A stretch of DNA of 33,503 bases from a virus. The notes under the pieces were generated by a model, which made no database searches, was not told where the DNA came from, and worked only from the letters and a program-made list of their open reading frames with translations. Positions 4,868-33,471 of this stretch are shown here, piece by piece (the first letter of the stretch is position 1; each line of letters begins with the position of its first letter). The DNA lies in the IMG/VR virus record IMGVR_UViG_3300030103_000972, positions 1 through 33,503 of that record, one strand, 5' to 3'. The position numbers and the translations under genes are program-made.

Positions 4868-5191
4868 TTACTCCGTTGGTTTCTCTGGATATTCAATATC
4901 TCTTGCTTGTTCATAAGTTGTAATGCCATTGGTCAAATCTCTTAATGACTGTCTATAAGTTTGCCATTGAGTTTTTTGTTCTTCTGATAAAGAAGTGTCT
5001 GGCATCTGAGTCCAATCACTCTCTGATAAAAGTTTGTTTCTTTTCCTTCTTAAAACATTCATTTCAGTAGGATATAAGTTATTTTCAAACTCTAATTTTT
5101 GTGCATCTATAAATGCTTGTTCTGTAGCTGTGGCTTCTCTTGTTTCATTAACAGCGTTTGCTACATCAATATAAGTAATAGTATCTGTCAT
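4868..5191 (-). CDS. Tail assembly chaperone (PF16778-like), first copy
   Basis: A 107-residue protein with the family hallmarks in order: LRRKRNKLLSESDWTQMPD (about 46-64), LSEEQKTQWQTYRQSLRDL (about 67-86) and the terminal IEYPEKP motif. It probably assists tail fibre trimerisation or attachment. Its ATG overlaps the stop of the tail fibre gene (position 5191) and it ends 3 nt before the adhesin, so fibre, chaperone and adhesin should be made in order from one transcript. Confidence 0.8.
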   Translation of the reverse strand: MTDTITYIDVANAVNETREATATEQAFIDAQKLEFENNLYPTEMNVLRRKRNKLLSESDWTQMPDTSLSEEQKTQWQTYRQSLRDLTNGITTYEQARDIEYPEKPTE

Positions 5192-7812
5192 TATGATGTT
5201 TTCACTCCGTAAACAACTCCAGCTAAAGTATTCCAGTTACTGCCAAAAAAGTGCAGACCTGTAACTGTTTGGTTTGTTTTGTATTGAAAAGCAAAATTAT
5301 TTACAAAGTTATTTGCTCCTGTGTCATCACGAGCATACAACGCACCCATTGCTCTTGGTCGTAAATTGCTTTCATGTGTATTAGTTAAAATCATATAACC
5401 TCCACCACCTTCTTCTCTAACTCTATTATTATCTCCATATAATTGTCCTCTATTTGAATTGTTATATGAGCCACCATCTATTCTTCTTCCTGTGTAAATA
5501 CTTGAAGATAAAGAAGAACTGCCATTTCTAAAAAGCACATTAAGTTCAGCACCACTAGATGAGTTTCCGTCAAACTTAGTAAAAATTATTTGGTAAATAT
5601 CGTAAGTAGATGAAAAGACATTATCTATTGTAATTCCCGAAGAACCGCCACTAAAGGAAGTTAAAGGTACAAAAGTTCCACCAACAGCAGAACCATTAAC
5701 AGTTAAAGCACCAGTAACATCTACACCACCAGAAGTAGTTTCTATTTTTTTAGAGTTGTCATGGTATAGTTCTACTGAACCATTTTTAGTAAATTTAGCA
5801 TAAGTTTCACCACCACCAACTTGTTGAAGAAATACATTGTTATTTGCTTGTAAATATAAATCACCAGTTCCATTTTCAACTATATAACTATTAGATGCGT
5901 CATGGTAAATCTCTAAGTCTTGTGAAGCACCTAGTCTAATCTTCTTATCATCACCCATATCAAGATTAGTTCCATCAAAAGTAATATTGGCTTCACCTTC
6001 TAAGGTGTTAGCAGTGCCACTTCCTGTAATTAATCTATTGTCAGCATTGTTATTGATTGTGGTAGAGGTAACAGTAGCAAAGGTATTATCACCTCTTAAA
6101 AATGTGGTTGCATCTTTTGTTCCAGAAGTTCCTAGTCTTGCTATTGGTACAATACCATCATTAAGATTGTTGGCGTTTAGTTCTGCGACTGTAAATGATT
6201 TAAAAGCATGAACAGTTAATAAATCTCCTGTAGCTGCACCACTACCTAATACAATAGATGTACCTGAGGTAGCAGTGTAATCGTCTGGATCTAAAACCAC
6301 ACCATTAAGAGTTACAAATAAATTATCAACACTATATGAAAGTGTAGCTGAGTTATCATCACTACCACTAAAAGTAGTTTGGTTAGAGGTTGCTGTATAT
6401 TCATAAATTATTAAAGATGCAGTACCAGCAGATGATGCAGCAATCCAGTTTGCTCCATCATAGACACGCATCTCATTTGCCGTGGAATTAAAGTATAAAG
6501 CACCAGATACTAAAGCATTACCATCATTATCTGTAGTAGGATTGGAAGTTTTACTTCCTAAGTATTTATCATCAAAATCATCAAATGAGTTTGCAGCTGC
6601 GGCAGCTGAATTTGCGGCTGCGGTAGCTGAATTACCAGCATTAGTAGCAGATGTCGAAGCTGATGTTGCAGATGTGGCTGCATTTGTAGCTGATGTAGCG
6701 GCTTCTGATGCCTTAGTTGTAGCTGTACTTGCCTGTGTAGTTGCTGTCGTAGCTGATGTAGCAGCCTCAGTAGCTTTGGTTGTAGCAGTTGTAGCTTGAG
6801 TCGTAGCTGTACTTGCAGAAGTAGCAGCATTACTTGCAGAGGTTGATGCCTCACTTGCTTTTGTCGTTGCGGTAGAAGCGGAGCTAGCAGCATTTGTTGC
6901 AGAGGTGCTGGCTTCTGATGCCTTGGTTGTTGCAGTTGAAGCAGAGCCACTTGCACTTGTTGCAGAAGATGCTGCATTAGTTGCCTGGGTACTGGCTGTA
7001 GTAGCCGAATTGCCAGCATTTGTTTCTGATGTAGCAGCAGCGGTTGCTGAGTTTGCAGCTTCTGTCGCTTTTGTGGTTGCTGTCGTAGCAGAAGAGGCAG
7101 CAGCCGTAGCTGATGATGCCGCATTAGTAGCTGATGTGGTTGCGGAGGCGGCATCGACTATAAGAGTATATTTAGCTGAGTTAGCATTTGTCGTTAACGG
7201 CTGGCTGCCTGAACTAGTATGAGCTTCTGTGACTATAAAGATGTTATTTGTAGAAGTATCTTTAATTATATCTCTAATTACATAGGCTGTACTAGCTGCC
7301 CAATTCCCACGAAATGTTCCAAGTTCCTGAGTAACAGAAATTTCACCAGAGCTATCAAACGCTAAAACTTTACTAGCTCTATCCGTTGATCCCACAGTAA
7401 ACTCTGTGGATGTCATGGTGTTTGTACGACTGAGCTTTATAGATCTGTCAACTTCTTCTTGTACCTCTTGTAATTGTAAAGTTAATTTATCTAAAGCACT
7501 CTCGTGACTCTCTGCTGGAAACGGATCATTTTCAACGTAATCCGTTGTTTGCGTGAGATTGGTATTTCTTAATAATACAACTGTTTCTCCATTTACTGGT
7601 ATGTTACCAGATGTAAAAGTTACAGTACCGCCAGAGCCTGTATCACTGACAGTATAATGTGTCGTAATCGTTTTTGTGGTTTCGGTTCCTGTGCTGCTTC
7701 TTATTATAACTGTTAATTCATTAATTGTGTTAATCTTAAAAGAGTAGGTGAAAGCAGATGTGCTTCCATTACCTGAATAAGATTGTTTTACTGTTGTGCT
7801 GCTTACGGTCAT
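5191..7812 (-). CDS. Tail fibre protein, T7-type N-terminus with Ala/Ser/Thr repeat shaft
   Basis: An 873-residue fibre. Residues 1-150 resemble the T7 gp17 N-terminal adaptor domain that plugs into the tail (SYSGNGSTSAFTYSF, then ESALDKLTLQLQEVQEEVDRS). Residues about 165-185 (GNWAASTAYVIRDIIKD) look like a small carbohydrate-binding-module fold. Residues about 220-417 are a low-complexity shaft of imperfect repeats built on SATxAxxSATxATTKAxEA, expected to form a trimeric helical stalk. The C-terminal part has fibre repeats (LEIYHDASNSYI, VELYHDNSKKIETT) and a beta-rich head. It starts within the stop region of the preceding gene (4-nt overlap). Confidence 0.85.
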   Translation of the reverse strand: MTVSSTTVKQSYSGNGSTSAFTYSFKINTINELTVIIRSSTGTETTKTITTHYTVSDTGSGGTVTFTSGNIPVNGETVVLLRNTNLTQTTDYVENDPFPAESHESALDKLTLQLQEVQEEVDRSIKLSRTNTMTSTEFTVGSTDRASKVLAFDSSGEISVTQELGTFRGNWAASTAYVIRDIIKDTSTNNIFIVTEAHTSSGSQPLTTNANSAKYTLIVDAASATTSATNAASSATAAASSATTATTKATEAANSATAAATSETNAGNSATTASTQATNAASSATSASGSASTATTKASEASTSATNAASSASTATTKASEASTSASNAATSASTATTQATTATTKATEAATSATTATTQASTATTKASEAATSATNAATSATSASTSATNAGNSATAAANSAAAAANSFDDFDDKYLGSKTSNPTTDNDGNALVSGALYFNSTANEMRVYDGANWIAASSAGTASLIIYEYTATSNQTTFSGSDDNSATLSYSVDNLFVTLNGVVLDPDDYTATSGTSIVLGSGAATGDLLTVHAFKSFTVAELNANNLNDGIVPIARLGTSGTKDATTFLRGDNTFATVTSTTINNNADNRLITGSGTANTLEGEANITFDGTNLDMGDDKKIRLGASQDLEIYHDASNSYIVENGTGDLYLQANNNVFLQQVGGGETYAKFTKNGSVELYHDNSKKIETTSGGVDVTGALTVNGSAVGGTFVPLTSFSGGSSGITIDNVFSSTYDIYQIIFTKFDGNSSSGAELNVLFRNGSSSLSSSIYTGRRIDGGSYNNSNRGQLYGDNNRVREEGGGGYMILTNTHESNLRPRAMGALYARDDTGANNFVNNFAFQYKTNQTVTGLHFFGSNWNTLAGVVYGVKTS

Positions 7813-30838: not shown

Positions 30839-31981
30839 TTAATTAAGAGTTTTTAATAAATCGTCAGCAAACTGAGTAGGTACATCGTAGGTGATGTAAT
30901 CATCCTGGGTGTCAGCATCTTTGTGACCAAGCAATGCCTGGGTATCTTTAGTATCTGCACCTAGCTTACGATAATTTGTAGAAACAAACTTTCTAAAAGA
31001 TTTAGTATTGAAGTGATCCAGACCAAACTCTTTTTTAATTCTAACCTGGATTTCAGCACAATAACTATATGAAACAGAAAACAATGCGTGCTTTTTAGTA
31101 TTCACATAATCTCTAAATAAAGGCTCTAAACCTTTTGGAAATGGAACGTATCTTTCACCATCTTCACCATGACTCATGCGGAGCTGGGAAGATTTAGTGT
31201 TAGAGATCAGACCAGTCTTAGAAGACTTTGTTTTATTTATTCTGATATAATTATTATCAAAGTCAAAATCAGCTACAGTCAAAGCAGCAGCTTCACCCCA
31301 TCTCACAGCTGTAAAGCACTCAATAATAAATACCAATGCAGCCTCCGCCTCTAAAGACATACCTTTGTTATGCAGCTCCGCCAGGTACTTAAATACTTTT
31401 TTCATAGTAGCAGCATCAAGAGCTTTTACTTTGGCAGCTTTATAATCAGGTAGGTGTTTTTTAAATGCCTTACAAGGATTAAAGTCCATGTAATCTGACA
31501 TAACAGCACTATCAATAATCTGGCTAAAGTATCTCCAGATCCTAGTTTTTTTACTGTCAGAAAAACCACTCTTGTGAATATCGTTTAGTAATCTTCTAAT
31601 ATAAAGTTTGTCAATCTGATTAAGTTTGATTGATGGATTTACAAATCTAAACACAGCAGCAATCCACTGTTTGTTTCTTGATACGGTGTCTGGGTTCAAA
31701 CCTTTGTTTGGATTTTCTAAGCGTAATTGTTCAGCAGTATGCCAATCTTCAATAAGTTCATTAGCGGCATCTTGCAAAGTTTTAGTATTAGTAGTTTGAG
31801 GTTTTGGTTTTATAACAAGAGAAGCAATTAATTTTTTTGCATTTTCTTTTGCTTCAGTTGCGGTAGCACCATAAACCGCTTTGTAAATAGAATAACCTTT
31901 GGAGTTTTTCTCACCAGTATTTACTCTGACTCTCCAATTTTTATTTCTACTTTTGTCGTCTGCGATCCGACTTGCTTTCAT
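30839..31981 (-). CDS. int: Tyrosine integrase
   Basis: A 380-residue phage integrase. An N-terminal arm-binding-type domain (WRVRVNTGEKNSKGYSIYKAVYGATATEAKENA) is followed by a SAM-like core-binding domain (about 75-175) and the catalytic domain with Arg in FTAVRWGE, a second Arg in KSFRK, His in LLGHKDADTQDDY and the nucleophile Tyr nine residues after that His. The first His of the usual HxxR box is Lys here. Start is taken at 31981 (MKASRIADD), with GGAG 8 nt upstream; the frame extends to 32047 but crosses the promoter. It would insert the phage into the host chromosome, probably at tRNA-Ser. Confidence 0.9.
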   Translation of the reverse strand: MKASRIADDKSRNKNWRVRVNTGEKNSKGYSIYKAVYGATATEAKENAKKLIASLVIKPKPQTTNTKTLQDAANELIEDWHTAEQLRLENPNKGLNPDTVSRNKQWIAAVFRFVNPSIKLNQIDKLYIRRLLNDIHKSGFSDSKKTRIWRYFSQIIDSAVMSDYMDFNPCKAFKKHLPDYKAAKVKALDAATMKKVFKYLAELHNKGMSLEAEAALVFIIECFTAVRWGEAAALTVADFDFDNNYIRINKTKSSKTGLISNTKSSQLRMSHGEDGERYVPFPKGLEPLFRDYVNTKKHALFSVSYSYCAEIQVRIKKEFGLDHFNTKSFRKFVSTNYRKLGADTKDTQALLGHKDADTQDDYITYDVPTQFADDLLKTLN

Positions 31982-32003
31982 AGTTTTATCTCCGTTTTTT
32001 ACT

Positions 32004-32020
32004 ATGGTTCTGAGAACCAT
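32004..32020 (-). promoter_or_regulatory. Perfect palindrome in the integrase leader (operator)
   Basis: ATGGTTCTGAGAACCAT is a perfect inverted repeat with 8-nt arms. It lies immediately downstream of the integrase -10 box, covering the expected +1 to +20, and upstream of the Shine-Dalgarno. Position and symmetry indicate a repressor site controlling integrase expression. Confidence 0.6.
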
Positions 32021-32029
32021 TTTTGTGAC

Positions 32030-32057
32030 ATTATAGGTATAAAACACAAAGTTGCAA
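32030..32057 (-). promoter_or_regulatory. Integrase promoter (sigma70-type)
   Basis: On the minus strand: -35 TTGCAA (32057-32052), 16-nt spacer, -10 TATAAT (32035-32030), about 48 nt before the chosen integrase start. Matches the consensus well and is followed directly by the palindrome. Confidence 0.65.
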
Positions 32058-32205: not shown

Positions 32206-32295
32206 TGGCGGAGAGGGTGGGATTTGAACCCACGAACCGCTTGCACGATTGCCAGTTTTCAAGACTGGTGTATTCAACCACTCTACCACCTCTCC
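32206..32295 (-). tRNA. tRNA-Ser(UGA), CCA encoded
   Basis: A complete 90-nt serine tRNA: acceptor GGAGAGG pairs with CCTCTCC, discriminator G, encoded CCA (32208-32206). The anticodon arm is CCAGT-CTTGAAA-ACTGG with anticodon TGA; a long variable arm follows, then the T arm GTGGG-TTCAAAT-CCCAC. D-arm GTAGAGTGGTTGAA is typical of bacterial tRNA-Ser. It lies upstream of the integrase in the same orientation. It may be a phage tRNA or the attP copy of the host integration target. Confidence 0.93.
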
Positions 32296-32324: not shown

Positions 32325-32573
32325 TTAAGCAAACCTTCTAAACTTAGCAGTCTTCTTAGCAATTCTTTTAGGTTGTTTGGAAACTTGTTTACCAGATTTT
32401 TTTGCTTTTCTCTTTGCTCTGGTTGTAGCTGCATACTCAGCAGCTGATAATGATTTGATTGCAGCAGAGGGTAGGTATCTCTCTCCAGTCACACTGGATT
32501 TTTTACCAGATTTAGTACGCCATTTTTGCTTACTCCAGGCTTTTAAACTTCTCTGACTTTTTTTAAGAGCCAT
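32325..32573 (-). CDS. Small basic protein of marine phages (DUF5872-like)
   Basis: An 82-residue very basic protein: MALKKSQRSLKAWSKQKWRTKSGKKSSVTGERYLPSAAIKSL, then AEYAATTRAKRKAKKSGKQ and a basic tail. I recognise this pattern from many cyanophage and marine podovirus genomes; the DUF5872 label is from memory. A nucleic-acid-binding or packaged protein is likely. It is the last gene of the microprotein cluster, coupled to the preceding one by TAATG, and ends 30 nt before the tRNA. Confidence 0.75.
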   Translation of the reverse strand: MALKKSQRSLKAWSKQKWRTKSGKKSSVTGERYLPSAAIKSLSAAEYAATTRAKRKAKKSGKQVSKQPKRIAKKTAKFRRFA

Positions 32574-32734
32574 TATTTACCTACTTTTTTTTGTGCTTTT
32601 TTGTGTGCTGCCGTAAAAGATTTACCAGCTTTCATCTCTTTACGCATCATAGCCATGTGTTTTTTACTATGATGTTTGGAGTGTTTCTTCATGGTTTCTT
32701 TTTGACGCTTTGTTAATTCTTTTCTTTTAGCCAT
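32573..32734 (-). CDS. Lys/His-rich microprotein (53 aa)
   Basis: A 53-residue protein: MAKRKELTKRQKETMKKHSKHHSKKHM, then MMRKEMKAGKSFTAAHKKAQKKVGK. The pattern LTKRQ..MKKHxxHHxKKHMxxMRKxMKAGxxFTxAHKxAxKKVGK is conserved in marine phages, to my knowledge without known function. Strongly positive, histidine-rich. Its stop overlaps the next start (TAATG). Confidence 0.75.
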   Translation of the reverse strand: MAKRKELTKRQKETMKKHSKHHSKKHMAMMRKEMKAGKSFTAAHKKAQKKVGK

Positions 32735-32746
32735 TGTTTTTACTAC

Positions 32747-32806
32747 CTATTTATATCCGCCACCTTTTTTCTTATAAAGTCTGGCGAGTGCTTGTGCTTT
32801 TCTTGC
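32747..32806 (-). pseudogene. Detached C-terminal part of interrupted gene
   Basis: Codes in one frame for ARKAQALARLYKKKGGGYK followed by TAG. This is exactly the C-terminal part that homologous phage proteins carry after the motif GKWSA (or GQWSA), the last residues before the stop of the ORF at 32839-32967. It has no start codon in its frame after the in-frame TGA within the hairpin. It is therefore either dead or reached by bypassing, frameshifting or RNA-level excision. Confidence 0.7.
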
Positions 32807-32841
32807 AAATCCCCCCCAACTCGAAAGTCAGGGGGTAATCA
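32804..32841 (-). other. 38-nt insertion: stop codon plus UUCG-capped hairpin
   Basis: On the minus strand the segment begins with TGA directly after an Ala codon GCT, then TTA, a 10-bp hairpin (5' arm CCCCCTGACT at 32835-32826, loop TTCG, 3' arm AGTTGGGGGG at 32821-32812), an unpaired G (32811), ATTT and a GCA Ala codon directly before the resumed reading frame. Length 38 is not a multiple of three. Ends show CTTG/CAAG as outer inverse repeats and TGC on both sides. Confidence 0.75.
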
Positions 32842-32967
32842 AGCAGACCATTTACCAGCAGCAGTTCCGTAACTTGCTGATGATTTGATCTGTTGAAATA
32901 ACTTCTTTCTCATCCCTGGCTTGGTATAATTACCAGCTTTATTTACTGTTGATTTTTTCTTAGCCAT
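32839..32967 (-). CDS. Conserved basic phage protein, interrupted after GKWSA
   Basis: A 42-residue ORF: MAKKKSTVNKAGNYTKPGMRKKLFQQIKSSASYGTAAGKWSA, stop TGA. The VNKAGNYTKPxMRKxLFxxIK...GxWSA pattern is that of a conserved small protein of marine phages which normally continues ARKAQ..LA..YK..GGGYK. That continuation is present 38 nt downstream in another frame (32747-32806); the joined protein would be about 60 residues. Its ATG overlaps the upstream stop (TAATG), so translation is coupled as in its intact neighbours. Confidence 0.75.
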   Translation of the reverse strand: MAKKKSTVNKAGNYTKPGMRKKLFQQIKSSASYGTAAGKWSA

Positions 32968-33074
32968 TAATACTTCATCTTCTTAGGTTTCTTACCAGCC
33001 TTCTTCATAGACATGGCTGTTGCTGCCTGTTTCTTAGCTTTCTTAGTCTTCTTTTTCATCATTTTACCTGGCAT
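32967..33074 (-). CDS. Lysine-rich microprotein (35 aa)
   Basis: A 35-residue protein starting MPGKMMKKKTKKAKKQAATAM, ending KKPKKMKY. About half of the residues are Lys. GGAGATAATT precedes the ATG. Its start resembles the microprotein at 18139-18261. No known function; nucleic-acid neutralisation or binding is plausible. Confidence 0.6.
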   Translation of the reverse strand: MPGKMMKKKTKKAKKQAATAMSMKKAGKKPKKMKY

Positions 33075-33084
33075 AATTATCTCC

Positions 33085-33342
33085 TTATTTTTTCTTTTTA
33101 TGTCGTTGTGCAAACTTTCTTGCACTTTCCTGGTTCCTAAAACCCCATTTTTTTAAGGCTAGAGCCAGTCTTGTTGGTCTTCCTTTGCTATCCTTCATCT
33201 TTCCTTTGATGCCAGAAAAACGAGCTGCAAATGAAACTCTTCTTGGGTTAGTGCCTGATCTTACTGGTGCTTTTACACCGAACTTTTTCCGACCAGCGGC
33301 ATTGAGGCCGCCAGTCTTAGATTGAAACTTCTTTGCTACCAT
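33085..33342 (-). CDS. Basic conserved phage protein (DUF6321-like)
   Basis: An 85-residue protein: GGLNAAGRKKFGVKAPVRSG (about 11-30), RRVSFAARFSGIKGKMKDSKGRPTRLALALKKWGF (about 34-68) and a basic tail. The SLNAxGRxxF...SFxARFxGxKG...RxxxALKKWGF layout matches small proteins of marine and other phages (DUF6321-like, from memory). Function unknown. It directly follows the small membrane protein gene. Confidence 0.7.
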   Translation of the reverse strand: MVAKKFQSKTGGLNAAGRKKFGVKAPVRSGTNPRRVSFAARFSGIKGKMKDSKGRPTRLALALKKWGFRNQESARKFAQRHKKKK

Positions 33343-33441
33343 CTATGCAACCAGATAGTAAATGACTGCAACTGCTACTATAACAACAGCAATCTTGGAA
33401 GTTTTATTTAGTCTATTCCAAAGTTCTTTGATCTTATTCAT
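33343..33441 (-). CDS. Small single-helix membrane protein (32 aa)
   Basis: A 32-residue protein: MNKIKELWNRLNKTSK (charged) followed by one hydrophobic helix, IAVVIVAVAVIYYLVA. It starts 3 nt after the stop of the holin-like gene and ends at the start of the basic protein downstream. Position right after the holin suggests a lysis accessory or antiholin-type role, which is inference. The first 17 codons are repeated at the left end of the window. Confidence 0.65.
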   Translation of the reverse strand: MNKIKELWNRLNKTSKIAVVIVAVAVIYYLVA

Positions 33442-33471
33442 AGCCTATCCCTTCTTTTTAGTTATTAAACC
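33389..33471. repeat. Terminal direct repeat, right copy
   Basis: The match of positions 1-83 (one mismatch at 33465). Beyond 33471 the sequence diverges from the left copy but keeps coding a similar holin tail, so the two copies are the same locus or a tandem gene duplication. Confidence 0.9.

Follow-up and report, generated by a model that had tools for sequence, protein, structure and literature searches.

The stretch of DNA analysed in this study (the window) spans 33,503 bases and represents a virus record from a metagenome, in the form of a single contig. Bases 1-83 recur at 33389-33471 with one mismatch, and the overlap of the two ends diverges beyond this repeat; judged from these ends, the record probably covers almost the whole of a genome that is circular or circularly permuted, with a tip that is strain-variant or misjoined. 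The head-tail connector encoded in the window shows 60-61% identity to pelagiphage versions, e.g., those of HTVC034P, HTVC035P, and Lederberg EXVC029P. A tyrosine integrase gene (30839-32047), with a complete tRNA-Ser(UGA) gene beside it (32206-32295), adjoins a row of small basic genes located on the minus strand. The row (32325-33342) encodes short, very basic proteins (PHROG 14910, 31838, 17747, and DUF6321), which have homologs in pelagiphages and no assigned functions. One of these genes, belonging to the PHROG 17747 family, is split.

The 5' half of the split gene (32842..32967, on the minus strand, as are all its elements described below) starts with ATG at 32967 and comprises 42 codons (MAKKKSTVNKAGNYTKPGMRKKLFQQIKSSASYGTAAGKWSA), the last five encoding GKWSA. 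Its final codon, GCT (Ala; 32842..32844), which we regard as the putative take-off codon, is followed immediately by a TGA stop codon (32839..32841), the first triplet of a 38-nt non-coding gap (32804..32841). The gap contains a 10-bp hairpin (32812..32835; stem 32835-32826/32821-32812) with a TTCG loop (32825-32822) and ends with GCA (Ala; 32804..32806), the inferred landing codon. The 3' half (32747..32803), which runs from AGA to AAA and ends with a TAG stop, encodes RKAQALARLYKKKGGGYK and has no start codon of its own. The insert, composed of TGA, hairpin, and GCA, thus parts GKWSA from RKAQALARLYKKKGGGYK, and the continuation frame is shifted by 38 nt and closed by a TGA within the hairpin. 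The split, the stop codon, the UUCG-capped hairpin, and the closed downstream frame had been noted in a first-pass annotation made from the window alone, and were confirmed. Two other roles of the insert were considered and rejected: a transcription terminator, since no T run follows the hairpin, and phase variation by slippage between direct repeats, since the border repeats are only 2-3 bp long and are not conserved.

The full product of the split gene is a 60-residue basic protein. In a DNA alignment, the insert occupies exactly 38 columns, and 12 of 12 homologs from isolate phages show no gap at this site; homologs from phages of Pelagibacter, Roseobacter, Puniceispirillum, and Methylophilales are uninterrupted. 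Relatives of the protein were found in at least 590 IMG/VR stretches, of which the 80 kept for comparison are all intact, and the insert was absent from 86 of 86 intact relatives examined. The peptide preceding the take-off codon is normal protein sequence, present also in the intact genes. One of the intact relatives was modelled with AlphaFold2 (mean pLDDT 78); the model comprises two helices, at residues 17-28 and 42-54, and the gap is located at the start of the second one. The model therefore predicts that a product terminated at the TGA would lack both this helix and the invariant RKAQ motif; the C-terminal helix, which corresponds to the 3' half, holds some of the most conserved residues of the protein.

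To find split relatives, 2.9 million viral contigs (IMG/VR) were pattern-scanned for GGNAARTGGTCNGCNTGA. Among the 100 stretches returned, five other contigs (L105, L106, L120, L134, and L193) carry the same split in this gene. Three further stretches, L210-L212, were not accepted as members because their matches are not in this gene, and a single exact match to half of the hairpin (L194) appears chance-like. Pattern scans of the viral contigs with other stop codons, without the C run, or with the hairpin alone recovered no further split members; none were found in bacterial species genomes with the pattern used, or in isolate phages. L105, L120, and L134 belong to a single phage population, with 98.4-99.7% identity across their overlaps, and are referred to as the L105 group. 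Four distinct element types can thus be distinguished (window, L106, L105 group, and L193), carried by at least four phages. L106 and the window share the order of integrase, tRNA-Ser(UGA) (L106:1681-1770), and small genes, with 66-83% DNA identity; in both phages, the tRNA gene lies beside the tyrosine integrase gene and is possibly an attachment site or a phage-carried tRNA. An integrase is also encoded on L134.

All types share GGN-AAA-TGG-TCT-GCY-TGA-TTA-CCCC, followed by the 10-bp hairpin, a G run, 6 to 14 nt, and AGA-AAR-GCN-CAR. The take-off codon is GCT or GCC, the TGA is invariant among all split members, and stop codon, hairpin, and continuation are kept across divergent phages. The first-pass annotation had also expected a landing codon synonymous with the take-off codon; this holds for three of the four types, which carry GCA, and fails for the L105 group, in which GTA occupies this position, and in no type are the two codons identical. 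Taken alone, the fold of the gap in the window is only moderately unusual (z = -1.96), and it is the conservation of the same split in the five other contigs that removes chance as its origin.

The gap hairpin is 100% paired in all five distinct sequence rows, and 5 of its 10 pairs are changed on both sides. Its covariation reaches 0.53 compared with 0.29 in shuffled alignments (0 of 500 as high) and does not exceed 0.20 when the pairing is slid along the alignment, from which we infer that the hairpin is selected as a structure. The loop is UUCG in the window, L106, and L193 (closed by C-G in the latter) and CUAG in the L105 group. A lower stem is also predicted in each type, linking the take-off and stop codons with sequence that precedes or overlaps the landing site; its pairs differ between the types. 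Downstream of the landing site, at the start of the second ORF, where T4 gene 60 has a 3' stem-loop, only weak folds were predicted, and these also differ between types.

A second structure, not described in the first-pass annotation, precedes the take-off codon. In each of the four types, the 54 nt before this codon fold more stably than controls with synonymous codons, which is rarely the case in intact relatives. With the codon usage of the window, the P values of the four types were 0.007, 0.012, 0.003, and 0.004, and none of 11 intact relatives showed the effect (0.06-0.98); with the codon usage of each locus, the four types gave P values of 0.007-0.023 and z scores of -2.5 to -3.7. Across the 86 intact relatives, the mean z was -0.13 (sd 1.0), which differs from the split types (Mann-Whitney 1e-5). 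Three intact relatives (L019, L040, and L042) also fold well in this region (P < 0.02) and two others (L020 and L066) weakly. Related sequences are not independent, and we treat these P values as guides only. In the window, the candidate stem-loop (32845..32891), identified by its minimum free energy against the synonymous-codon null, has AGATCA/TGGTCT as its outer stem. The corresponding stem, in which UGGUCU next to the take-off codon pairs with AGAUCA or GGAUCA, is found in the window, L106, and the L105 group, whereas L193 shows a different fold that ends at the same place.

Both halves of the gene are under coding selection, in keeping with the coding quality noted for both in the first-pass annotation. 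In the 3' half, 13 of 54 nucleotides differ between the window and L106, resulting in 11 synonymous codons and no replacements, against a null mean of 8.5 replacements (P = 5e-5, the lowest value that the simulation could give); each of the ten sequence pairs gave P ≤ 6e-4. By this codon-level measure, the 3' half is under protein selection, even though it lacks a start codon, and ribosomes coming from the first half therefore have to reach it. The selection signal could partly reflect recombination with intact genes, given a divergent patch between L120 and L134 that is confined to the 3' half.

The gaps measure 38, 37, 38, and 45 nt in the window, L106, L105/L120/L134, and L193, respectively, i.e., 2, 1, 2, and 0 modulo 3. 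Programmed -1 or +1 frameshifting does not meet these three frame relations, nor the closure of the window's continuation frame inside the gap; since every residue modulo 3 is represented among the gap lengths, one frameshift or readthrough event cannot account for the whole set, in agreement with the argument made for the window alone. Reassignment of UGA as a sense codon was also rejected, because TGA, like TAA, terminates large ORFs in the window and the frames would differ anyway.

We consider it likely that the insert directs programmed translational bypassing. From the DNA it can be read that the gene is split and the split conserved, that the hairpin covaries, that the 3' half is under selection, that the gaps fall into three length classes, and that a structure lies upstream, whereas the bypass itself, its landing codon, and its efficiency are inferred in the absence of protein, ribosome-profiling, or RNA data, and the case rests on four distinct element types only. 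According to this model, the ribosome would synthesize MAKKK...GKWSA and halt when UGA occupies the A site, its peptidyl-tRNA-Ala being paired with GCU. The downstream hairpin, together with the stem-loop directly upstream, may help the ribosome to release the message and slide across the gap, after which peptidyl-tRNA-Ala would re-pair at GCA, or at GUA via a G.U pair in one relative. Decoding would restart at AGA, yielding the 60-residue protein ending in ...GKWSARKAQALARLYKKKGGGYK, and termination at UGA would give the 42-residue form without the second helix. From base pairing alone, we infer that a tRNA-Ala(UGC) could bind GCU through wobble and GCA with full pairing; GUA would require a G.U pair at the second codon position, which counts against the model.

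The main rival, to which we assign a low probability, is excision of the 37-45 nt from the RNA by an unknown mini-intron-like process. A cut at GC^YTGA...^AAGA would produce GCA AGA in every type, so that one rule would cover all three gap lengths as well as the GTA-bearing type, and the hairpin could be a processing signal. However, the insert is far below the size of group I or group II introns, no Rfam family except a tRNA matches in the window, and no catalytic RNA core is recognizable. Excision also offers no explanation for the stop codon at the border or for the stem-loop in the coding sequence just upstream, neither of which it would require.

Could the two halves instead be separate peptides, the first terminated at UGA and the second initiated anew on the 3' half? 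They lie close together, and the G run could serve as a Shine-Dalgarno sequence; however, no ATG, GTG, or TTG occurs in the continuation frame of the window between the hairpin-internal TGA and AGA, and no conserved start codon precedes the 3' half in its frame, the codon two before AGA being TTT, ATA, ATT, or AAA in the four types. The 3' half alone would also encode just 18 residues forming one helix, and we find this explanation hard to credit. Equally little weight can be given to the proposal that the insert is regulatory or parasitic, that only the 42-residue protein is made, and that the 3' half is either a relic or kept fresh through recombination. This proposal would fit the occurrence of the insert in scattered lineages of the gene and a recombinant-looking patch over the 3' half: over 2,860 nt, L120 and L134 (99.4% identical) show 17 differences, 9 of which fall in the 40 nt (L120:2294-2333) that encode the 3' half, directly downstream of the gap, as would be expected of a short recombination tract with one end near the gap. 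Against it, the 3' halves show no stop or frame break in any split member, the divergence between the window and L106 is all synonymous, and the helix that would be lost carries some of the best-conserved residues of the protein. Gene decay is practically excluded.

Readthrough of UGA with subsequent slippage on the G run, whether ribosomal or transcriptional, is very improbable. A -1 slip on the G7 run of the window, as suggested in the first-pass annotation, would reach the continuation frame, and L193 is in frame after UGA alone, yet the full set would need slips of -1 in the window, +1 in L106, -1 in L105, and 0 in L193, and 12-15 non-homologous residues would be inserted into the invariant WSARKAQ motif. 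The 45-nt gap of L193 (L193:1384-1428) is open in frame except for the UGA, and plain readthrough would add 15 residues there. An assembly fault or sequencing artefact, which might be suspected from a single metagenomic contig with an imperfect end overlap, is practically refuted by the five other contigs bearing homologous, diverged, and covarying inserts at the same place.

To our knowledge, bypassing has so far been well proven in one phage gene only, T4 gene 60. The bypassing element proposed here resembles it in producing one conserved protein from two ORFs disjoined by a non-coding gap, in its short first ORF (42 codons in the window, 46 in T4), in the stop codon directly after the take-off codon (GCY TGA in all members of the set), in a tetraloop hairpin within the gap, in a stem-loop upstream of the take-off codon, in a landing codon for the same amino acid (three of four types), in a gap length independent of frame, and in the absence of the insert from relatives (for T4 gene 60, with its take-off and 5' stem-loops and its 50-nt gap, see PMC11194080, PMC5009743, PMC3014915). 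The likeness to T4 gene 60 proposed in the first-pass annotation is thereby supported and extended by the candidate 5' stem-loop, for which the evidence is statistical, bypassing itself remaining an inference. In contrast, T4 uses GGA followed by UAG and an identical landing codon, whereas GCY (Ala) followed by UGA and non-identical GCA or GTA are found here; the gap is 50 nt in T4 and 37-45 nt here; and the T4 product is a topoisomerase, compared with a small basic protein of unknown function. T4 gene 60 also has a stimulatory nascent peptide; the peptide encoded here before the take-off codon is the ordinary sequence shared with intact genes. In T4 gene 60, processivity stays close to 0.99 per nucleotide over distances of up to 56 nt (PMC11194080, PMC5009743). 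While several phages carry the element described here, none of the other T4-related phages examined has the gene 60 gap (PMC3014915), and for this reason the rules of bypassing have so far not been read from natural variation. The four diverged natural versions, with different hairpins, gap lengths, take-off codons, and landing codons, allow a comparative dissection of what bypassing needs.

The byp elements of Magnusiomyces capitatus mitochondria, known from 81 sites, are likewise short inserts in conserved genes, with take-off and landing codons that are not always perfectly matched (PMC5009743). They differ from the phage element in their number (one site per genome here), in their mitochondrial rather than bacterial phage setting, and in seeming to be independent of mRNA context, whereas the flanking structure appears selected in our set. 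Bypassing has also been proposed to be needed in other phage genes, namely the terminase gene of Streptomyces phage Hau3 (PMC5009743) and the tape measure gene of mycobacteriophage Corndog (PMC4351075). These proposals rest on a UUA codon or a missing start codon, in contrast to the conserved stop, covarying hairpin, and conserved continuation found here, and, in the parts of the sources available to us, neither has comparable comparative support (PMC5009743, PMC4351075). Our literature search, conducted largely without subscription papers, found no published report of bypassing in the phages analysed here.

When a tree is built from the 50 residues that can be aligned, the split genes stand apart from one another (window with L106, the L105 group, and L193 beside the intact L066), and the supported branches force at least four changes between the split and intact states, within the limits of only 50 columns. 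The insert has either moved between phages or often been lost. A covariance search found one copy of the element per locus, the next best hit reaching 16.5 bits (E 0.25); with this single occurrence and no other site in the loci searched, the insert is not a dispersed repeat. Horizontal spread of the insert with flanking sequence is plausible but unproven. Only tentatively, and with more doubt than conviction, we suggest that a same-site bypassing element moves horizontally among temperate marine phages with co-transferred flanks, which would make it the first bacterial counterpart of the mobile byp elements, perhaps setting the ratio of the 42- and 60-residue forms. The recurrence of the element suggests that bypassing elements can persist and spread. 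The split element also supplies an exact signature for metagenome searches, and in such genomes the true protein is missed by gene callers.

Elsewhere in the window, 11 degenerate repeat copies with 21/63-nt spacing are present at 6652-7146, within an ORF of 873 residues (5191-7812) that perhaps encodes a coiled-coil tail fibre, and the GC skew is locally reversed in this region.
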